Assembly (NCBI GenBank): GCA_034638255.1
Contig: JAWPGT010000016.1
Location: 496,001 to 560,000 of the forward strand
Direction: 5' to 3'
From: Coprinus comatus
Taxonomy: Eukaryota > Basidiomycota > Agaricomycetes > Agaricales > Agaricaceae
DNA: 64,000 bases
This document shows positions 7,640 through 43,042 of the stretch, one piece after another. The notes beneath the pieces are model-generated. The model ran no database searches, was not told the origin of the DNA, and saw only the letters and a list, made by a program, of their open reading frames with translations. The position numbers and the translations under genes were made by a program. How positions within the stretch are numbered: the first letter of the stretch is position 1; every line of letters starts with the position of its first letter.

Positions 7640-9638
7640 CATCAGGAAATCACGCATTTGCTTGGGTCTACCTTAGGGTTGCTTAGACTACTTGTTGTAC
7701 TTGTACATCCTTGGTGAAAAATGTCCCAAGGTACTCTGAGGAGCTTTTTAGTTCCAAGTTAGGTCAAGGATAGAACCAAGTAAATCCTCAAGCTTTACTT
7801 GCTCACGAAAAATGTTAAACTTTAGTTTACATTATTAACACTATTTGTTTTTGTTCTGATCAATGATTATTGATCATCACATATGTTTTGAAACTTTTGA
7901 TGTTATCAAATTTGGACTTTGCAAAAAAAGCGGATGAGTGTGACATCCTACTCTCCTTGTCACACATCACTCACTCCACGTCACATCCCAATGGCAACAA
8001 TCTCACGAGATCATAATACCTCTGCCACATCATTACATCCCTATTCACTCAATTCCTAACAAAATCTCACGTTTTTAGGCTCTCTAGAATCGTCTCACCG
8101 TTTTGCTTCGAATGACGGCAGTTACGCGTTGCGTGGTTTAGTACTTGTACTATAACAGCCACTTTATTGAACAAGGTAAGCATACAATGTTTTTGGTCTG
8201 TTGTACTCATTTCATCACGCTTTGGCACGCGTCTTGGCTCTTTGGAACCGGCTCTTTTTTCCGCTTCGAACAAGCCTAGCCACACGTGCTATGGTCTAAT
8301 TCTCATGGTATGGCATGAATAATATTGGTATGTCATCACTCTGTAGTATCCTGAGGCTGTCTCACTCATTTCTTCACATAGAGACATTTACCTAGGCTCG
8401 TTTAGACCATTCGTAACTCCTCCATGACTGACCGAAGTTGATTGCGCTGTGGGGAAGGATTGGAGGTGTAGTGAGCAATACTCTGGTACTAGGTCCCAGG
8501 TGAGTCACTCTAACTAAATATGTAATATTTCGCTTGATACATGTTTAATCCTTATGATTTTAGGCTCATTACAACCGTCTTGACAACGCCGTCCGAACAG
8601 TGCCATTCGCACTCCGCACCACCCAAAACTCCGGTGCCGACACACTCCTCTCTGGTGAGTTACCATATATGTTCCTCCCCAACTAAATATTTAATATGTC
8701 ACTCAATATCTATGCACTCCTTTTGTATCTAGGCTCATTAAAATCACCTAAATGACGCCGTTCGAACGATACCATTTACACTGCACACTGTCCAAAACCC
8801 CTGTGCCGACATGCACATCTCTGGTAAGTTACCACATATGTTCCTCCCCAACGAAATAACTGATATATCATTCAATATCTGTGCACTCCTCCTGTACTTA
8901 GGTTCGTTAAAACCGTCTAAACGGCGTTGTTACAACGATACTATCCGCACCACGTACCCCTCAAAACTCATGTACCGACATGCAGATCTTTGGTAAGTTA
9001 CTATATATATATTACTCTCCAACTAAATAACTAATAACTCGCCCATTTCTTATCCAATCCTTTTGTGTTTAGGCTCGTTATAACCACATTAACCGCCCCT
9101 TTCCAACGCTGGTACTCGCACGCCGTACGGTCGAGTATCATGCTTCGTGTGATGTGATCTTTGTAACACATCATCCAAGGTTCGCTTTTTCTCTCCATTT
9201 TATGTTAATAATTACTTATTTCACTATTACAGTCTCTATGCTGATACAAAGGTATAAGAATGTATTAATACTGTAGACTAAGTTAGTATATCACATGTAT
9301 TATTACAACTTCAATGATATTTTTTTTTATTGTCCTTATTCCCTTACTTGGTGTGACCTTGAGAGTACTTGAATTATCCCGAAAATGCAAATAAAATCCT
9401 GTAAAATATAATTACAAGGTAGAAAAGTAACTTTTATGTGCTGTCCAAGTATGTTCAAAGCTATTCAAGTACACCCAAGTTAGAGGGACCTACTTGGAGC
9501 TCCTTGGGACAAATTTTCCAAGGAACTCCAAGGATAATTTTACTCTTCTTTGAATTCTATTGGGGTGTACTTGGAGCTCCTTGGATGCCTTTCTAAGTAA
9601 CTTCAAGTACCTCCAAGGACATGCGCGAAATCCTGATG
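7640..9638. mobile_element. 1,999-bp terminal-inverted-repeat element (element A)
   Basis: It is present in the left arm and absent at the matching site of the right arm, so both ends are exact. The termini are inverted: CATCAGGAAATCACGCAT at the left, and CATCAGGATTTCGCGCAT reading inward from the right. The flanks share TT (empty site GGTTTGGCC), consistent with a 2-bp target duplication. Subterminal regions at both ends are full of degenerate CCTTGG/CCAAGG motifs, suggesting long decayed inverted repeats. No transposase frame was recognised, so it looks non-autonomous. Its centre holds a tandem array described separately. Superfamily not assigned. Confidence 0.85.
8078..9110 (+). repeat. 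Tandem array of exon-like units with splice-site motifs inside element A
   Basis: Units of about 155-169 bp repeat with the same internal order: a GGTRAGT donor-like site (at about 8500, 8655, 8824 and 8993), about 75-80 AT-rich bases, a TAG acceptor-like site (8571-8573, 8730-8732, 8899-8901, 9070-9072), then an 80-91 bp GC-richer block beginning GCTCRTTA. Two more degenerate GGCTC blocks start near 8080 and 8395. The exon-like blocks are 81, 91 and 91 bp and contain no shared long reading frame. Whether they are spliced is unknown. Confidence 0.7.
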
Positions 9639-13069: not shown

Positions 13070-13680
13070 TTGTGTTGGCAACTGCAGTTAATCAAAATCC
13101 CGAATTAGTTGTTAACTGTAATTTCTGTGTATTAGTATGCACAATGTGCTGTAGTCAACACGGAATCCTAAAGCTCAGTGTTTAAATACAGGCCATTTTC
13201 TTCTTTGGAAGGTTGGTATCGCACATGGTGATATTAGTACAAATAACCTGATGGTGAACGTTTGAACCCTAGAACCAAACGAGGCGTTTTGGGTGGTTTC
13301 TACCTTGCGGCCATTACAAATCCTGGGGACGATTCTCCACCACCACATGGGTTTCAGCGTAGTGGGACCTTACCTTTCATGGCTATCGAAATGTTGCATC
13401 ATTCGGGCGGGACTGTTCCCAAAAGATACTGTCATGATTTGGAGTCATTCGCTTGGTGTCTCTTCTGGCATTGCGCTGACTTTTCCTCAGGACGCATACG
13501 GTAATACCAGAATAATGCGTGTCTCTCGACGCCGCAAAGTTCAAAGGTCATATATTTGCACCACTTACAGTAGTAGATCGCTAGAATAACAAATATGTGC
13601 CGAGTCGGGATGAACTAGACACGGCGGGTGATATTTGTGATTTGTGAAGGGTGAACGGACAATGATGGCTCGGATCATGG

Positions 13681-13976
13681 TGTCCGTGGAATCGGATGAT
13701 TTATTTCTTTGTGTCTAAGTTTCTTTGATTATTTGCGACACGGACATTTTACTAGACAGCATTATTTTGTATATAAACTGTACCAGTTCGTCTGGAGCAC
13801 CTCACTCTCTTTCTGTATCTTCGAGTGTGAGGTGAGACTTTTCCTACTTCTATAATCTTACTTTATACTGATGATGTACCTATAGCCTAACGTTACTTGA
13901 CTTCTTATAGGTACTTAATAATAGACTCTCTTTCTGTATCTTCGAGTGTGAGCCTAACGTTACTTGACTTCTTATA
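13681..13976 (+). mobile_element. LTR-like sequence with an internal intron and a spliced duplicate (locus 1; ends approximate)
   Basis: This segment interrupts the third FunK1 copy. It has a TATATAAA box (13770-13777). About 27 bp later is GCACCTCA, which opens a 28-nt block A (13804-13831) whose ends can pair. A 54-nt intron-like segment follows (13832-13885: GTGAGA donor, CTGAT branch-like, TATAG acceptor), then block B (13886-13909). After a 15-nt linker (13910-13924), A (13925-13952) and B (13953-13976) recur joined exactly as if spliced. The 5' end was chosen at TGTCCGTGG by comparison with the LTR at 39147. I could not confirm a target duplication here. The inserted DNA may extend to about 14415. 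Confidence 0.65.
13770..13777 (+). promoter_or_regulatory. TATA box of the LTR-like sequence
   Basis: TATATAAA lies 27 bp upstream of GCACCTCA, the start of the conserved block. That places a likely transcription start at the 5' edge of hairpin block A. Confidence 0.5.
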
Positions 13977-14777
13977 TAGATTTCCCCCTGAAGATTGGGC
14001 TCTGAATTTCCATGTATATTAGGTCCACGGCGTCTTAGCACTATAGATTGCTTGTAGCGGAATATAAATGCTGAATTTAAATAAATAAAAAATTGACGGC
14101 GTGGAAGAGTGCCCGTTATGGTGCTTCTTGACTCACCGGATGATTACATGGACTGATGAGTGGGCGAACCGATTACCGCTCTGACATTGGAGGAAGAGAA
14201 TGGATTCGACATTCCCGTTGTACATTGCGGAGTATTGGACTGATATACTACTCAGTGTCTGAATTGAAATGACAACTGAGGGAAAATGCAAAACGAATGA
14301 AATGAAGTTTAAGTAGTCGTGCGTGACCGTGGGAGAATATTGACATCTGTAGTATATGGTATACTCAACACGGAGGAGGATGAAGAAACAAAAGACCAGG
14401 TCGCGTTGGGCGACAGGTAACGTACATTTACACCACTGAAATTCCCAAGAATGATGCTTATTATCTTGAAAAGATGATTGGTGCTTTATCAAGTGCAAAG
14501 ATTCCCACCGAATGGGGAGTGCTGATTAGGAAGTGGATGAAAGTTACTGTCAGTAAGGATACCATAAGTCCTTGATGCCCAGGTATCTAACAAGGGTATT
14601 GATCCAAGTAGAATAGTTAACGGTGAGCAAGGTGGCTTTTCATGTAGAGCTACAAAAATGTAGAAAATATATAAATAATTATCTTGGGGCCTATATATGA
14701 CGTCAACCCCCGACACCATAACCATTTTAAAACCTTTTACCATTACCAACTCTCTTAAACTCTAATCACACGAGAGA

Positions 14778-29208: not shown

Positions 29209-30051
29209 TTTTTTGCCCAAGACCCATCTGGCCTATTCAATTCAGCCTCGCAAAAACCGAAAGGCAGGAATTTGCGTAATTTGTTGGTTTAAGTTTTTCA
29301 TCCTGTAGAATCAGTCGATCTGTTATTTATATAGCAGGGTCCGTCTCGGTGCGATTTTCTGGTATGGATACCCTTCAACTCCCGGTATGATAGCAGGCTC
29401 TGCTCCACTGGCGATATGGCCGGAGTAGGACCATGGTCAAGATATACGATTGGTGTGTTTGTTTTGGAGATATCTCAATTTATTTGAAACTGCTGGGTGT
29501 ATTGTCTGGAACTGTGTTGATGGTCGTTTGCGATTAGTGCTTGGAGGTGCTTGGACACCGTTTTCGACCATCTGGTCTTTTATTCATCACCGAGTGGAAT
29601 TGTTACAGAAATATTTTTTCAATACACTCGGGATCCAGGAACTCCAGATACGAGTAGTTTGTGTCTATACAATATCACAATCCAACGGTCATTAAGATGC
29701 ATTTGCGCAGAGAAACTGGGTTGGAAGGTGGTCCAGGGTGTGTCATTGGATTGATCAACAAAAGATCGGCATCCGGTGTGCATCTACGCGAGGTTGATAT
29801 ACTCGTTGTTGTTTCCGGGCAAAGGTGATATACCGACATTAATAGGTATTTTAGAATAATAATTCCGATGGCTACCCCAAGTTTTATGGACTGATATGTG
29901 GATTTTGCATGTGGCCTGATATGGTCCTAAAGAATTCATAATATATTTATTATTGGGGAGATCACATCCAATCCGGACCAGGGTCTTCAGATTTCCTCTT
30001 AATCCAACCAGACCATCTTCTGCCATCTGACATTCCTTTCCTTCTCCCATC
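29209..30051. other. Intergenic region upstream of ATP-citrate lyase
   Basis: No protein-coding gene is recognised. The 3' part, closest to 30052, should hold the ATP-citrate lyase promoter and leader. No clear TATA box or repeat was noticed. Confidence 0.5.
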
Positions 30052-33000
30052 ATGTCTTCCAAAGGTAAGGCCGCTTCCTCCTCGCCTAGCACACCGCATA
30101 TACTCACCCACAACATCCTCCAGCCATTCGCGAATACGATGCCAAGTTGCTCCTCGCGTATTGGCTCGAGCGCGCTCCACCTGTAGCTGCCCATGCCCAG
30201 GTCAAGACCAACTTCCAGTACCCTCTTGCGCGAGTGGCTCAGGTCGCATGGGACCCCGAGACAAACTCCATTACCCCCGACAACAAGATCCCCTCCTGGG
30301 TCCACACACCAAGCTCGTCGCAAAGCCTGATCAGCTCATCAAGCGTCGCGGAAAGGCTGGTCTTTTGGCCCTCAACAAGACCTGGCCTGAAGCCAGACAA
30401 TGGATTGCCGAACGAGCCGGAAAGCCCCAGAAGGTGAGTAGATTGTACGGTCAGAGGTTCTACGCCGTGTGTTTTATCCATCATCGATCGATATTGGTGG
30501 CAACTTTAATCATGGTTCGCGATGGATTATCGAGAGATATCTATTACTCCAGGCCTGCAGGGGTTGACGCGTCCATCGGTTGCTATTTATGGATCACACG
30601 TGATTGGATATATTGATTTATTCCGCTTATTTTAATCCCAAGAACCGGTCATTGACACATCGCTTCAGGTCGAGGCCATCACTGGAACCCTGAACAACTT
30701 CATTGTGGAACCCTTCCTCCCCCATCCCTCAAACACTGAATACTATGTCTGCATCAACTCTCAGCGTGAGGGCGACCGTATCCTCTTCACCCACGAAGGT
30801 GGTGTTGAAGTTGGTGACGTCGATGCCAAGGCTCTCGTCCTCGACATCCCCGTCAACAAGCCCTTCCCTACCCGTGAGGTCATCACCTCAACCCTCCTTA
30901 CCCATGTATCCGCAGAGAAGAAAGAAACTCTCACCGACTTCCTCATCCGCCTTTACTCCGTCTACGTCGACCTTCACTTCGCATACCTAGAGATAAACCC
31001 CCTCGTCTGCCTCGATGCTGTCGATGGCGGAGAGCCCACCATCTTCTACCTCGACATGGCTGCCAAGCTTGACCAAACTGCTGAGAGCATCTGTGGACCC
31101 AAGTGGGCCATCGCTCGTGACTTGTCTGTGTACGAGTCCTCCAACGCTACCACCACTACTGGCGCCAAGGTCTCTGCTGACCGTGGACCACCTATGGTAA
31201 GTCGTTCATGTCCACACTCCGATGGACATATTTAACACCTGACTTTGCTAGGTTTGGCCCGCTCCTTTCGGTCGTGATTTGACCAAGGAGGAGGCTTACA
31301 TTCAAAAGCTCGATGGTTCGACTGGTGCTTCTCTCAAGTTGACTGTTCTCAACCCTGAAGGACGCATCTGGACTATGGTTGCTGGTGGTGGTGCCAGTGT
31401 TGTCTACTCTGATGCCATTGCCGCTCATGGTTTCGCCGATGAATTAGCCAACTACGGTGAGTACTCCGGTGCTCCTACAGAGGGTCAAACCTACGAGTAC
31501 GCCAAGACTATCAGTGAGTTTTACTTTTATGCAGGGTTCGTTCAAAATATAATAATTTACCACAGTCGATCTCATTACCCGTGGAACCCCTCGCCCTGAT
31601 GGCAAGATCCTCATTATTGGTGGTGGTATTGCTAACTTCACCAACGTTGCCGCTACTTTCAAGGGTATCATTCGTGCTCTCAAGGAGTACAAGAACCAGC
31701 TCATCAACCACGGTGTCAAGATCTTCGTTCGTCGTGGCGGTCCTAACTATCAGGAAGGTCTCAAGGCGATGCGCCTCCTCGGTGAGAGTCTTGGTGTTCC
31801 CATTCGCGTCTTTGGCCCCGACACCCACATCACCGAAATCGTTCCCCTTGCCTTGGGCATTGACATCTCCAAGTCCAAGCCCTCTATTGGTGATGGTTTA
31901 AAGAGTGTACAACCTGGCACTCCTCCCCCTCAGGTCGCCCTGCTGGCAACACCGACCCCGCTGTTGGCTCCATCCATGCTGATGGCCAACGCACTCAACC
32001 TAAGGATCAAATCGTTCACTTCGAGGCTGAATCCAGCCCTTCCACCCGCCCCTGGTTCAGGCCCTTCGATAGCAGCACCCGCTCCTTCGTGTACGGCCTC
32101 CAACCCCGCGCTATCCAAGGCATGCTCGATTTCGACTACTCTTGCGGTCGTGCTTCCCCCTCCGTGGCTGCAATGATCTATCCTTTCGGTGGTCATCACA
32201 TTCAGAAGTTCTACTGGGGAACTAAGGAGACTCTCCTTCCCGTCTACACCAGTGTTAAGGATGCTATCGCCAAACACCCAGATGTCGATGTCGTCGTGAA
32301 CTTCGCATCCAGCCGTAGTGTCTACTCTAGCACTCTCGAGTGCTTCGAGTTCCCTCAGATCAAGGCCATTGCTCTCATTGCTGAGGGTGTTCCTGAACGT
32401 CACGCTCGTGAGATTCTCTGGAAGGCCAAGGACAAGGGTGTCCTCATCATTGGCCCTGCTACTGTCGGCGGTATCAAGCCCGGTTGCTTCAGGATTGGTA
32501 ACTCTGGTGGTATGATGGACAACATTATCGCTTCCAAACTTTACCGCGCTGGATCGGTTGGTTATGTCTCCAAGTCTGGAGGCATGTCCAACGAGTTGAA
32601 TAACATCCTGTCCCTCGTCACCAACGGTACTTACGAAGGTATTGCCATCGGTGGTGATCGTTACCCCGGATCCACTTTCATCGACCATCTCCTCCGCTAC
32701 GAGGCCGATCCCGAGTGCAAGATGCTCGTCCTTCTTGGTGAAGTTGGTGGTATTGAAGAGTACCGTGTTATTGAGGCTGTTAAGACTGGAAAGATCACGA
32801 AGCCAATCGTCGCTTGGGCTATCGGTACTTGCGCCAAGATGTTCACCACTGAGGTTCAATTCGGTCACGCTGGTTCCATGGCCAACAGTGATCTCGAGAC
32901 TGCCGATGCCAAGAATCGCGCCATGAGGGATGCTGGTTTCATCGTTCCCGAGACCTTCGAAGAACTTCCTCGTGTTCTCAAAGAGGCTTACGAGTCTCTC

Positions 33001-34116
33001 GTCAAGTCCGGTGTCATTGTTCCCAATAATGAGGTTGAACCTCCCGTCATTCCTATGGACTACAAATGGGCTCAGGTAAGCACTTTTCGTTCTTCTATAT
33101 TTCGATTCTGACCTTTGTAATAGGAACTCGGTCTCATCAGAAAGCCTGCTGCTTTCATCTCTACAATTTCTGATGAGCGTGGTCAAGAACTTCTCTACGC
33201 TGGCATGCGTATTTCCGAGGTGTTCAAGGAGGAGATTGGCATCGGTGGTGTTGTTTCCTTGTTGTGGTTCAAACGCCGTAAGTGACGCGTTTCGTTTCTT
33301 TTTTCCTTTCGAAATGCTCAAATTTTCATAGGCCTACCACCTTGGGCGACCAAGTTCATTGAGATGGTTCTCATGCTCACCGCTGATCACGGCCCCGCTG
33401 TCTCTGGTGCCATGAACACCATCGTTGCCACCCGTGCCGGAAAGGACCTCATCTCTTCCCTCGCTTCCGGTCTTTTGACCATCGGTTCCCGTTTCGGTGG
33501 TGCCCTTGACGAAGCCGCTTCCATGTTCTCACAAGCTCGCGATACTGGTCTCACCCCTCGCGAGTTCGTCGATTCCTGCAGGAAGGCCAACAAACTCAGT
33601 GAGTAATAGTCTCGTTTACCCAACACCTTTCTGATTATTATTTTAGTTTCTGGTATTGGCCACAAAATCAAGAGCGTCAACAACCCTGATCTCCGTGTTG
33701 AACTCGTGAAGGAGTATGTTATCAAGAACTTCCCCAGCCATACCTTGCTTGACTACGCGCTTGCCGTTGAGAAAGTTACCACTGCTAAGAAGGATACTGT
33801 AAATAATTCCCACTTATTTTTCTTGTGCCTTGTGCTTACATTGTTCTAGCTCATCTTGAATGTCGATGGTTGTATTGCCGTCTGCTTCGTCGACCTGCTT
33901 CGTGACAGTGGTGCCTTCACCCCTGACGAGGCTGATGAATATATCAAGATCGGTACTCTCAACGGTCTTTTCGTTCTCGGTCGTAGCATTGGTTTCATTG
34001 GTCATCATCTTGACCAGAAGAGACTCAAGGCTCCTCTCTACCGTCACCCTGCTGACGATATCTTCATCAACATGGCTGATGTCAACCAACCTCGTGTCTT
34101 GGGTCGCATGCAGTAA
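30052..34116 (+). CDS. ACL1: ATP-citrate lyase, single-chain form (two apparent frameshifts)
   Basis: This enzyme makes cytosolic acetyl-CoA and oxaloacetate from citrate, CoA and ATP, feeding lipid and sterol synthesis. Nine exons run from ATG 30052 to the stop at 34114-34116; boundaries include 30434-30668, 31197-31251, 31514-31565, 33076-33123, 33278-33331, 33599-33646 and 33799-33849. Domain order is the ATP-grasp/succinyl-CoA-synthetase-beta-like part ([37 protein letters not shown]), the citrate-binding part, the CoA-binding part with the phospho-His motif QFGHAGSMA (near 32865), and the citrate-synthase-like C-terminus. A CA-rich tract at 30303-30310 and the CTCAGG at about 31929 each need a 1-2 nt correction to keep frame. 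Conservation is otherwise complete, so sequence error is more likely than gene death. Confidence 0.93.
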
Positions 34117-36941: not shown

Positions 36942-39146
36942 TACTGAATGCTCAGATAGTGTTTTGAACGTTAGGGCGTTGGGTGGCGAGAATCAGAGGA
37001 GGGGAGGGATGAAGGGAAGGGAATGAAAATAAAGCGAAGCATACATATACTGTTTCCGCCGACATGATCTAGAGCCCTGATACTACGGCAACTTTGCCAT
37101 GTTCTTCCGATCTCCACTCAATTGAAGCTATACCAACTCTTTTTGTTCGAAGTACCCTCTTAGACGTATCATGTATTCGGCATCAGATCGAGAACGAACT
37201 CTAAGAAGTATTCAAACATACTTAGAAACCCACTTACAGGTGGAGCTGAGACTGTAGCCATCTTCATGCGCGACTTGTACACGACCATAACGGAACGGAG
37301 GATGTGAGCCGGTATAATAACTCAACAGGGTTAGTTGTGACCCTGGGGCGTACCTAACCCTGGAACGCATATCTCCACCCTGAGCGCTTGGAGAGATGTT
37401 CGGTTAAAGTATATGTTAATTTCCGCATTAAGTATATGAAGATGGTATTGCTCGGCTTTATCCAAAGACATAGGAGAAAATTGATATGTTATATCTGTCC
37501 TTTTTGAGATTGTAATGACATGGATGTTGTCAGTTGTGAAGCTCAGAAGGATCTACTGTGCATTAAGTTTTAACGGGAACTGATCACGTGGTAAATTGTA
37601 TGATAATGCTTGCTCTAGAATAGGACAGATTGGTACCTCGCTTCACACTTCTCGTGCAACACGAGTTTGCACTCGACCCGCCCTCCGGCGCGATATCTTC
37701 TACATTCTTGACTAACCCCGCAGATATATATTCAATCGACCAGACTTAAGCTTCATTACTACCCAATTTCATTCAATATGATTTGCAATGTACACCTCAA
37801 ACAACCTTTGAAGTCAGATCGGAGAGGTTGAATATTGAATGCGTGCACGATACTACTCAGACAGACAAAGGAACGTTTACTACACGCATTAATTAGTGCC
37901 GTGCTTGAATCTTCTACGGCACGGAAAACAAGGTCAACTCCACCGATATAGTACGTGAACAAGTTAACCCCAAAGTAATCAGATACGTAAGGCGATCCTT
38001 GAGCCCAAAGAAAACAGTCGAAATCGGGACATCATTAATTATCTACCAATCGGGCTGTTTATCCGATATTTGAAGCTGGTTTGAAGTGCATATATGTGTA
38101 CGTACAAAGAATATTACGGTATGTACACCCCATCCATTCTCTTTCAATTGTTGGTGACAGAATTAGTGCTGTTCTAGACAGCCGTGGAGATCAATGTATC
38201 TTTTGAGGCAGTGGATATACCATACCCTAAGGCCCACATATTATAATACAAAGGGCTTACATCGAAAAAAACATAGCCCGATATATGTATAAAATTACAG
38301 GGAATATTGGTATCTTAGACAATATTGTATATGTGTGTAAAGGTATATTTGTAAGAGATTTCATCTTCTGGAGATGCCACATGCGGCGTTGTAGTAATAG
38401 TCGACAGCTGAGTAATGAATATTTACTATCTGGCGTAACAGAAATTCTCATGACCTTTCCAGGTACCCGTGTTTGTAAGATGGTATTTCTACGAACCAGA
38501 AAACCAGGTCGATCTCTCCCTAGTGAACATGTAGTCACAATCATATTCATATATGTTTATCGGAATGGGGGAACAAGAAGCAGATGTGATTGAGGCGTCG
38601 AAATGTAGTTCTTGAAAAGAGTAAGCCCAGACTTGGCAACTTGGCAACTGTAGTCTCTATCCTGGCATGCACGAGACACAAGGTATCAGATCATTCTGAA
38701 ATAGATGGGCAACGATTTGAAGGATCACTAAAAAATATGAACTACTCCTGATCATCGATCATCCCCGAGAGCTAATGATGATCGCTCCAAAAATAACTTT
38801 CCATTCAAGCACTCAAAGTGGATGTCCTCCACTTACCCATGTGGCGAACGAAATTGCTGTATTGGTACTTAAAACCGGGCTTGAAATGTACCGTTCCATT
38901 ATCATATCATATAACCTTAGGATTGGATCATCTCATGATTCCCGTAGTACATGATCCCTTTTTGGAGAACGATCCTTACCGCCGGCGAGACAGATAGTAA
39001 TTAATGCTTACTAGTAGTTATTTCTTCAGACTAAGCTTGCCTCTGTCGTACACATCTACATAAGTATTCATAAACTTAATATTCTTTCTTCCAATTTGGA
39101 TTCAGGCCTAATACTGCTTTAAGCAAAGCGGACAGTCGGGGAGACG
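36942..39146. other. Gene-poor region
   Basis: No coding gene is supported. The left end should carry the promoter of the leftward P450. The remainder has short scattered frames without domains and may be decayed repeat DNA. A GACAGTCGGGGAGACG stretch abuts the solo LTR at its right end. Confidence 0.45.
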
Positions 39147-39429
39147 TGTTGGAGGATGATGTCTCGAACGTTTTATTTCCTTTTATATCAAAAACATATG
39201 TTCATCTATGTTTGTGTTCCGCGCATTGTTTGGTTTCCAGAGTAGATAAATTGTAAAATTTTTCTTTTTGCACCTCAGCGGTTATTTACTTTCTAACGCT
39301 GAGGTGAGACTCTTACCTTTCATGTTTATCGCTTCGCGTAGCTAACTCTTGTATCGTAGCGTATCCTTTCAGGTTAGATTAAATCAAATCAGCGGTTATT
39401 TACTTTCTAACGCTGAGCGTATCCTTTCA
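39147..39429 (+). mobile_element. 283-bp solo LTR with internal intron and spliced duplicate (locus 2)
   Basis: It begins TGTTGG and ends CTTTCA, with a perfect 5-bp direct repeat AGACG at 39142-39146 and 39430-39434, so it is a solo LTR. Inside, after GCACCTCA, block A (39275-39303) is followed by a 56-nt intron-like segment (39304-39359: GTGAGA donor, GCTAAC branch, GTAG acceptor) and block B (39360-39371, CGTATCCTTTCA). A 17-nt linker (39372-39388) follows, then A (39389-39417) and B (39418-39429) joined with no intron. The second B is the LTR end. The arrangement is the same as at 13.8 kb although the block sequences differ. No internal retrotransposon genes are attached. Confidence 0.85.
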
Positions 39430-42400
39430 AGACGATTATGAAGTTGATAAAAATATTAATATATTCAATAATTAACGATTAGAATGGACTAAAAAAAAAA
39501 AAACGCAAGGCAGACGTGGCAAAAGCGCAGATCATTCTAGATTATATCTGTGAATACTCGGATGCACGCCTACTATATCCCGAGCGTAACGGAGTTACGT
39601 GAAGTGGCCGGTTATTACCTAAACCTTTTCAGCTCTCTCCATGTAATATTACAAGGAAAATTGGAGGAGTTCAAAGTCCAAATGTTCAAGTTCAAGGGGA
39701 TTTATACTATGTAGTAGTAGCAGTAGTATGTATAGACAGACTAATGTATCTACAGCGGTCATAGCGAAACGACTATCATATTGAGCCATGGCTCGGCATT
39801 ATCTTGAAGTATTTCAGGGATATCGTGCGTTGTATTCCAGGTCCATCGATTTACTTACAACCCCACGTTCTGGACCTGGTCGGGAAACATTGCTCCAGTC
39901 ACTCGTGAAATTCGCCCATACTTACATATAATCTACTGACTTCTCAACCACAACTAAAGAATCTTCAAGCATCTAGCCGCTGATGGACCCTCCAAGAAAC
40001 ACTACCAACCCTACATAGGAGTTGGAATTGTATTATTATTATGTTTTGGCGGGGTATAGTTTAGGCTTAAATAAGTGCGTAGGGATTAGTAGGGTGTGCC
40101 ACCGTCCTGATAGTTTTTTCACCTACACACTCCCTGTCATATCAGCGATTAATTGATTGCTCAGAATCTAGTTTTCAACAAATGAAAATTTCAGCTTCAT
40201 GTCGATTAAGTAACAGCCCTCGAACGCTGAGTACTGGGTATTAATTCCAGAATAATTTGTTTGTGTCAATCCCCTTAAAATTTTCTTAGTATTAGAATAG
40301 ACGCACGAACTTTATAATAATCCCGAGAACCACGGGGCTACTACTACATGGGGTGTTAATCGTCCTTATCATGTGTACATAAGTTTATGATGTTCTAAAA
40401 AAAATTGTGGGACTCATAGTCTCAAACACATGGTTACTAGAATGTTAGTACGCAGCCGGGTTAACACTTTTTAACTCGAACCTGCTGTGGGTCAGTTTAA
40501 ATCACTGTCTAGTATTTTCCAGGGCCACTACGAAGTTTGGTCTACACATAAACAAGTATTGGCTTCCTGGGTGATTTTCTGGGGTGATCGACTTACGTGT
40601 ATATCTATCTTTGGACAATCAATCGAAGAAGGCCCCAATGCCAGCATTGCTTATGCTTACAGTAGTTCTTGGCGATCAAGTACGTTTATCTCCTGGTAGG
40701 TGTGCTTACCTAGTACCGCACACATATGCATACTGTATGAATACTTTTTTGACTTTGAAGTCTTTGAGGGGGACTTATTCAAGTTGTAGGATTCCAGATA
40801 ATAAAATGAGTTAAACATGATTAACATCGTCTTCGGGTGCTGTCACATTAAGAACTTTTTGACTAATACGTTGAAGATTCAGATCTCCAGGCTATTACTT
40901 ACTAGAAACGGCCTCAGTAAAACGATAAAATGTTACGTCTACGAAATTTTCAACATCTGAATAACTTGACCTTTTATTCGCCTTGTATTGTAGTTACTAC
41001 TTCTGGAAGCTATGTACCCCATCAGCCACCAGTGATGGATTGTTGACGGAGTCCGTGACTCCGCACAGGTAGGTGCCATAGAATTCTTTTTTATGAAACC
41101 GTAAACTTACCAACTTTATTTATTGAGCGTATAATGAACATAGCACTTGTAAAAATTAACGTTCGAGAACGGAAAATCCATTATCCTTGACTTATCCAAA
41201 GATGTATCTCTTTTTTTGTTTTGTTGTTGAAGTGGTTCAAGCGCACTACGACTCGCCGTGGAGCAGAGTTCAAAGTTTATCTAAAAATGTACTTCTATTG
41301 AAAGGTATGGCATGTAATGTAGTAAGTAGTTTTGAAATGCGTTCGGGGAGACTCCAAAAATGTCACAAAATAAGGTTAACGCGGTCCGTGAAGCCGTATC
41401 GTACGCAATACGATATTAAAAGCAATACAAAAGTGTGTGTACGTACTACCATATTCCTTCAGATTGTATGCAAGTCAAGTAGATTCGTTCTATGTTGGTT
41501 CTAAGTATGTAAATTGTGGGAGTCCGTGTCCGGACAACCAATTTTAAAAAATCACTTACGGATGATGTTGAGGTACAAGTAGATACAGTTAAACCTTAAA
41601 CCGTAACCCACAAAAGTTGTTTGCGGGGTGGAAATGCCTCATTGTGTGCGGTAGAAGTCGGGATAATTTGGAGTATCCTCCAACCCACTCGAACGAATAT
41701 GTAACAAAATCATCACACTAAGCAATTTCAAGTTAATTTTTTCAACGGCACAGTGGATGCAGTCATATTTTGCACTTCGCCGCGCCTTTTTTTGTTACCG
41801 GAAATCCCGCCGCTAACAACCGTTGTAGGTTAGTTGAAACTCTGCTTGAAAACCTTGTTTCTTACATGTACGGCTATGATACTCGTTACAAATATTTCGA
41901 AATTTTACTTAAGTATTGTATTGTGCTCCAACGGTTTTCAATTCTTCACACCCCAACTCATCGCCAAGAATCATGCATACGTACTATATAGTACAGGTGA
42001 GACACTTCCATTTGTTGTCCAGACTCCAGAATAAATCAAAGTCTAACGACCAGACGAAGTTATGCTTACTACAGGAAAACGGTACGTGACGGTATTTCTG
42101 GTAGAAATCGATCGTTTCGTATCAAGTTTTAAACAAAATGCAGTAATTATTCGGTTTATGAATTTGATTCTGGAGTGACGTGTACAACTTGAATTTATTC
42201 AATCAAATAGTGGAGAATATTATTCAATAGACAAACAGTGAAAATGTTCATGATCGGGTGCGGCAGGAATGGTATATGTATATCATTTCAATTCTCAACC
42301 CCACTTGAAGCTTGAAGCTTGATGAGCGCAACTCTCGTCAAACGGTCTTTCGGTTGAAGTTGCGACGATGAGATATCCGTGTTTCCATTGCCTAAAGTAA

Positions 42401-42970: not shown

Positions 42971-43042
42971 AGCAGCATGGCGCAGTGGTAGCGCGCGGGG
43001 CTCATAACCCTGAGGTCACTTGATCGAAACGAGTTGCTGCTA
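42971..43042 (+). tRNA. Initiator tRNA-Met (anticodon CAT)
   Basis: 72 nt. The acceptor stem AGCAGCA pairs with TGCTGCT (43035-43041), with the initiator-type A1-T72 end and discriminator A. Three G-C pairs close the anticodon loop (GGG-CTCATAA-CCC). The T loop is ATCGAAA, with A54 and A60 in place of the elongator TTC pattern. These are eukaryotic initiator features. Confidence 0.93.

Follow-up and report, generated by a model that had tools for sequence, protein, structure and literature searches.

Putative leader introns and a pre-joined copy of their exons in the LTRs of Ty1/copia elements of Coprinus comatus

Several LTR families of the basidiomycete Coprinus comatus probably carry spliceosomal leader introns within the LTR, together with a device that regenerates them. 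The last intron would close with a duplicate of every exon upstream of it, and it seems reasonably likely that each cycle of reverse transcription rewrites this duplicate from spliced RNA. Such an intron would be self-renewing, and the design would be old and general, with one-intron and two-intron forms. Two solo LTRs of this kind lie in the window, the whole stretch of 64,000 nt analysed here (contig JAWPGT010000016.1, positions 496,001 to 560,000 of the forward strand).

The LTR at 39147-39429 (+ strand, locus 2) is a Ty1/copia-type LTR of 283 bp (TG...CA). It belongs to family F2, has relatives that carry gag-pol and a primer-binding site (PBS), and is flanked by the target-site duplication (TSD) AGACG at 39142-39146 and 39430-39434. 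The first copy of exon A (A1, 39275-39303) is followed by intron 1 (39304-39359, 56 nt, GTGAGA...GCTAAC...GTAG, where GCTAAC is the branch site) and by exon B (39360-39372), composed of the 12-nt block B1 (39360-39371) and the G preceding a second donor. A linker of 17 nt (39372-39388) separates B1 from A2B2 (39389-39429), in which exons A and B are already joined and which closes the LTR. A1 and A2 (39389-39417) are identical (29/29), as are B1 and B2 (39418-39429, 12/12). The first-pass annotation had described this LTR between its AGACG repeats and the succession block A, 56-nt intron, block B, 17-nt linker and A joined to B; all of its coordinates proved correct and the succession was confirmed. 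The second-intron reading, the PBS that follows the LTR end in complete elements and the TATA-like box about 32 nt before A, all set out below, go beyond that annotation. The region 39373-39429 (donor GTTAGA, linker, A2, B2) can be read as a putative intron 2 with GT/AG boundaries, its closing G being base 1 of the PBS in complete elements (..TTTCA/G-GTTATGGG). A TATA-like box GATAAAT (39245-39251) lies 32 nt 5' of the A at the likely mRNA start (39277). An inverted repeat places its left arm CACCTCAGCG (39271-39280) around this likely start site and its right arm CGCTGAGGTG (39297-39306) across the 5' splice site. Apart from the TSD, all these features are on the + strand.

The other solo LTR, at 13579-13976 (+ strand, locus 1, TSD TAGAT at 13574-13578 and 13977-13981), belongs to family F1 and has the same design: A1 at 13804-13831, intron 1 at 13832-13885, B1 at 13886-13909 and A2B2 at 13925-13976, all on the + strand. 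This locus, cited earlier as locus 1, is real, with the block order of locus 2 in different letters. With A and B each at least 8 nt, a gap of 35-160 and A+B at least 24 nt, the window has two instances of A and B followed by joined AB, each on the + strand (41 and 52 matched nt); the arrangement is absent from both strands of 20 dinucleotide shuffles of the window. The window also contains a 169-nt unit repeated three times in tandem (8512-9018; units 2 and 3 are 75% and 65% identical to unit 1) and a segment (~30001-34000) with a G+C content of ~0.50-0.53 vs ~0.39-0.46 elsewhere.

A search of the organism's own 35.7-Mb genome returned at least 32 matches to locus 2 and at least 16 to locus 1. 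Complete elements are represented by L025 (LTRs aligned 311/311, TSD GATGG), L026 (306/309, TSD TACCT) and L041 (411/413, TSD GACCT), the LTR of the last ending in TATA, not CA. Their ORFs encode a copia-type gag, an integrase and then RVT_2. In the L025 ORF, rve (582-680) precedes RVT_2 (993-1229), placing the integrase N-terminal to the reverse transcriptase; the first ORF of L041 includes rve (569-654) and RVT_2 (944-1056), its RVT_2 match being split between two frames. In family F5, RVT_2 is found ~3.1 kb behind the PBS of L075 (C7:22584 and C7:25675). Pol was read for F1 and F2, and RVT_2 was located for F5. Domain order, LTR pairs with a 5-bp TSD and the adjoining tRNA PBS all agree in assigning these elements to Ty1/copia. 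The named fungal relatives scoring best against the L025 protein are from Agaricomycetes (Laccaria, Sphaerobolus, Leucocoprinus, Agaricus), and arthropod and plant relatives are found at lower identity.

The PBS, GGTTATGGGCCCCG, stands immediately 3' of B2 and of the LTR and complements the anticodon stem of tRNA-Met, two genes of which (in L094 and L100) contain its exact complement CGGGGCCCATAACC. The 12-mer GGTTATGGGCCC occurs 191 times in the genome vs 2 for the reversed pattern. The window itself includes a host tRNA-Met(CAT) gene (42971-43042, + strand), whose CGGGGCTCATAACC pairs with the PBS of the elements with one G-U. This complementarity points to priming by half of the initiator tRNA-Met, as in Drosophila copia. 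Priming at B1/GGTTA was considered and rejected, the tRNA match there being only 3-5 nt. In viral contigs the PBS pattern gave two matches, with surroundings unrelated by eye.

The design is present in at least six LTR families. F1, F2, F3 (L098) and F4 (L052) are of the two-intron type, while F5 and F6 (L032, L056) have a single intron, 52-61 nt long, that repeats exon 1 at its 3' end. In each of the six families, the sequence expected after splicing equals the contiguous LTR-end sequence except for scattered differences. F6 is an LTR-like family (TGTAAGGGG..CCCTTACA) inserted in two different copia LTRs near the PBS (L032, L056). F5, the CTGCAG family, is the largest, with about 200 copies, and exhibits 198 exon/GTGAGT joints and 190 exon/B joints genome-wide, against 0 in reversed controls. 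Among the first 100 listed of these 190 exon/B joints, 73 have an intron unit 47-55 nt upstream and 27 lack the exact intron motif at that distance; one joint has two units. Conversely, 18 of the 92 exon/intron joints compared lack an exact exon/B joint within 120 nt. The first-pass annotation had suggested a heritable property of an LTR family rather than an accident, and this is borne out by the complete Ty1/copia elements that share the design and by its recurrence in six or more families of different sequence. The outcome that it named as refuting, a lack of the duplicate in nearly all copies, disagrees with the 73 unit-bearing joints of F5, and in the representatives read the duplicates terminate at the splice sites.

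The design is not universal among the copia elements of this genome. Sixty of the first 62 PBS sites, in list order among 100 listed of 191, were read: in 17/60 an exact repeat of 13 nt or more lies directly upstream, its first copy followed by GT; six belong to F5, five of them without the unit and one (L058) with an odd repeat; two are reduced F2 forms (L064, L087) and two are tRNA genes. The remaining 33 show no exact repeat of this kind directly upstream, although one of them (L056) has a nested F6 LTR further upstream. The design is therefore not needed for copia replication here.

The boundaries of the repeated block indicate how it may be read. In F1, F2 and F3, B1 is followed by GT (AG/GTACTT, AG/GTTAG. 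and AG/GTTACT, respectively), and B2 together with PBS base 1 reads AG/GTTATGGG. The segment formed by linker, A2 and B2 therefore has intron boundaries. In F4 (L052), GTATTT follows B1, and B2 ends with TTTAG, then come a 39-nt exon C and the PBS; with 39 nt between it and the PBS, the A2B2 boundary does not simply result from the position of the LTR end. The linker and A2B2 thus look like a second intron ending at the PBS, and not like a copy set off by a simple linker. Removal of both introns would leave A-B-PBS, or A-B-C-PBS in F4. A direct splice from A1 to the end of A2, skipping B1, was rejected for the two-intron families: it would not keep B1 identical to B2. Acceptors fitting the A-B joint are found within the LTR or where it meets the PBS, not far downstream as in retroviruses.

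The 14 introns of the representatives measure 47-66 nt and ten of them carry CTNAY 11-22 nt before their end, the motif being absent from intron 2 of F3, both introns of F4 and the F6 intron. When intron 1 of six representatives is taken with the F5 intron of three, the lengths are 47-57 nt and CTNAY lies 11-17 nt before the end in 8/9, F4 being the exception. The donors of intron 2 are weak (GTTAG., GTACTT, GTTACT, GTATTT). Intron 1 consequently has the GT..AG boundaries, branch point and length predicted of a fungal intron, while the signals of the putative intron 2 are weaker and modest.

Transcription probably starts at the first base of A. A TATA-like motif is located 30-34 nt before the A where A2 starts matching A1 in 9/10 representatives of F1-F3. 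With this spacing, A2B2 therefore looks like a copy of an mRNA from its first base. The inverted repeat (8-11 bp) is found in F1, F2, F3 and F5, where equal length is reached in 0 to 3.7% of shuffles, and is absent over the 5' splice site of F4 and F6 under the same strict test. One arm is placed at the likely start or upstream of it, and the other spans the 5' splice site; the letters of the arms vary by family yet still pair. A hairpin masking the 5' splice site in the 3' LTR transcript only was considered but not supported by folding, the unpaired probability of the site not being consistently below that obtained with shuffled U3, and stays an idea.

Exons and joined copy evolve together: the design is shared between families while the exons differ. 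Over 13 representatives of F1-F5 (two F5 representatives among them carry identical exons), the summed within-copy difference is 15, whereas permuted pairings give a mean of 253 and a minimum of 88, and 0/20,000 reach so low a value. Among five F2 subfamilies, the true pairing gives 3 vs a mean of 23.4 and is the single lowest of 120 arrangements. The 17 F2 LTRs parsed show subfamilies varying in A and B, indels included, with matching changes in exons and copy; many of the leftover within-copy differences are C to T or G to A at CpG, as judged by eye. Exons and copy are identical in L025, the 5' LTR of L041 and L098. The worst fits are L044 (F1), with nine differences between exons and copy, and L052, with three; L026 has two between A2B2 and A1B1, common to both of its LTRs. 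As the copied unit has no intron, the copying must go through spliced RNA. The two main pieces over which the Pol of F1 and F2 align are 27% and 38% identical, therefore the process is long-running, and the design, being common to such families, would be old.

This pattern also bears on the idea that repeated AB has a structural role, as a packaging, dimer or translation element, and that purifying selection keeps its copies alike. The inverted repeat around A in F1, F2, F3 and F5 agrees with such a role. However, A and B differ strongly between families while being near-identical within a copy, indels included, and selection on structure would not impose letter-by-letter identity; we give this idea almost no credence.

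A route by which the introns may renew themselves can be proposed from the sequence. The transcript of a complete element would begin at base 1 of A in the 5' LTR, and removal of intron 1 (A to B) and intron 2 (B1/GT to B2 AG/) would yield an mRNA A-B-PBS. Half of the initiator tRNA-Met would prime at the PBS behind B2, giving a minus strong-stop cDNA complementary to A-B. If the introns of the 3' LTR remain in the RNA at least part of the time, this cDNA could pair with the contiguous A2B2; A1 would not serve as landing site, being split from B1 by the intron. The minus strand would then copy the linker, B1, intron 1, A1 and U3. The introns would be kept in the new LTR, and A2B2 would be a fresh copy of the spliced exons. 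For reverse transcription the spliced mRNA would be equivalent to one starting at A2, making the introns invisible to the cycle. Single-intron families would follow the same route, with the 3' end of their intron repeating exon 1. Landing on A1 would cause intron loss, and landing of an unspliced 5' end on A2 would cause unit gain. Both reduced and doubled forms exist, as such events predict. The landing step fits because most F5 copies compared have kept their introns, because these reduced and doubled forms occur and because of a foldback (L111) described below.

Alternatively, the genomic RNA may be unspliced, spliced RNA serving for translation only, the introns passing on by ordinary inheritance and A2B2 being corrected against A1B1 now and then through spliced strong-stop cDNA or template switching. 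Unspliced genomic RNA has a precedent in retroviruses, and the two A2B2 differences present in both LTRs of L026 look as if correction did not occur in every cycle, but they could equally stem from a CpG-decayed parental 5' LTR. Moreover, this alternative gives no reason for an A2B2 in six families that begins at the likely +1 position and ends at a splice acceptor, and exons equal copy in L025, the 5' LTR of L041 and L098. We regard it as rather unlikely and retain renewal from spliced RNA at each round.

Reduced forms are of two kinds. A-i1-B forms are found in L020, L040 and L087, and in F4 as A-i1-B-C without intron 2 (L107); A-B forms are found in L064 and L110, and F5 LTRs have 0, 1 or 2 units. 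Over the A-B part, exactly intron 1 (59 nt) separates L064 from L040; the two are identical at 152/161 aligned positions, with two more gaps, of 6 and 31 nt, in U3. L109, another candidate for an A-B-only copy, was rejected as an internally deleted F2 copy. Three of 21 LTR pairs, matched by spacing only and some sharing an LTR, are discordant between 5' and 3' LTR (0/1, 0/1 and 2/1): C4:1168667/1173572, C7:34294/29387 and C3:1424519/1428781 have 0, 0 and 2 units in the 5' LTR and 1 in the 3' LTR, the 5' LTR being the odd one in all three. Units can therefore be lost or gained by misalignment, and loss is no proof of splicing. Intron-less copies were accordingly dropped as such a proof: slippage between direct repeats yields the same product.

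These observations suit a reading in which nothing is spliced, A2B2 arose once, reverse-transcriptase slippage keeps the repeats alike and the GT/AG boundaries are coincidences or PBS relics. The F5 unit numbers, the 3/21 discordant pairs and the linker of F2 and F3, which starts with GGTTA like the PBS, all agree with it. Slippage, however, cannot join A to B without the intervening intron; the A-B joint falls on GT..AG in F1, F2, F3 and F4, and the second boundary of F4 (AG/GT) lies away from the PBS. This reading is very unlikely. It is also hardly credible that only intron 1 is spliced, giving A-B-linker-A-B-PBS, with A2B2 kept by template jumping between the AB repeats of the leader, although intron 1 generally has stronger signals than intron 2. 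If strong-stop cDNA of A-B-linker-A-B landed on A2, every cycle would bring one more unit, but two units are seen in just 1/100 listed F5 joints and an extra unit in 0/17 parsed F2 LTRs. The F4 copy without intron 2 (L107) also speaks against it, though deletion between repeats could produce this copy as well.

The foldback at L111:223-284 (C9:980822-980883) accords indirectly with the proposed removal of introns from RNA, as do the A-B joint and the comparison of L064 with L040. It is a perfect 62-bp structure with a 24-bp stem made of the F3 A-B sequence without U3, starting at base 1 of A and running 7 bases into the PBS, with inverted B joined to A. On one side it includes CATAACC, which is the 3' end of the primer tRNA; its flanks have no LTR features. 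The foldback fits a spliced template, since cDNA from an unspliced template should continue past A2 into the linker. This single case is possibly the fossil of a spliced strong-stop cDNA that snapped back and integrated, though a different rearrangement may have produced it.

Passage through RNA normally strips introns, and intron loss is the classical proof of retrotransposition. If the proposed route is true, a retroelement RNA is spliced and yet hands its intron on, with a repeated R at different places in the two LTRs. This would be a new route for passing introns through reverse transcription, within the known Ty1/copia kind of element. The start site, splice sites and strong-stop landing site would be readable from genomic DNA, and unit numbers (0, 1, 2) would record past strand transfers. 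Any fungal genome can be screened for the design, which also has a bearing on the benefit of a leader intron to a transposon: export, expression or escape from splicing-coupled RNAi.

LTR introns combined with a spliced copy of their exons have no description in the open-licence literature searched, including the available portions of PMC7175516, PMC12786077 and PMC5542766, and no record for the Ty1/copia group as far as that literature was searched. Self-priming is mentioned for S. pombe elements (available portion of PMC7175516). The plant LTR elements Ogre and EVADE are alternatively spliced to make subgenomic RNAs and so resemble the present elements in having spliced retrotransposon RNA; however, the available portion of the source mentions no spliced duplicate in their LTR (PMC12786077). 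The Ty1/copia (Pseudoviridae-type) elements of Agaricomycetes share with those described here gag, an integrase before RVT_2, LTRs starting with TG and a 5-bp TSD, but here the LTR has one or two introns and the spliced copy of their exons. In HTLV-1 and foamy viruses, the splice donor lies in R, the acceptor is far downstream and the genomic RNA is unspliced. The likeness is a 5' splice site within the transcribed region of the LTR, whereas here the putative introns fall inside the LTR or close at its edge and are followed by a joined-exon copy. In Tf1-type self-priming, the mRNA 5' end is important to reverse transcription, as it would be here; in the present elements, by contrast, a tRNA would prime and the mRNA 5' end would set the landing place of the strong-stop DNA.
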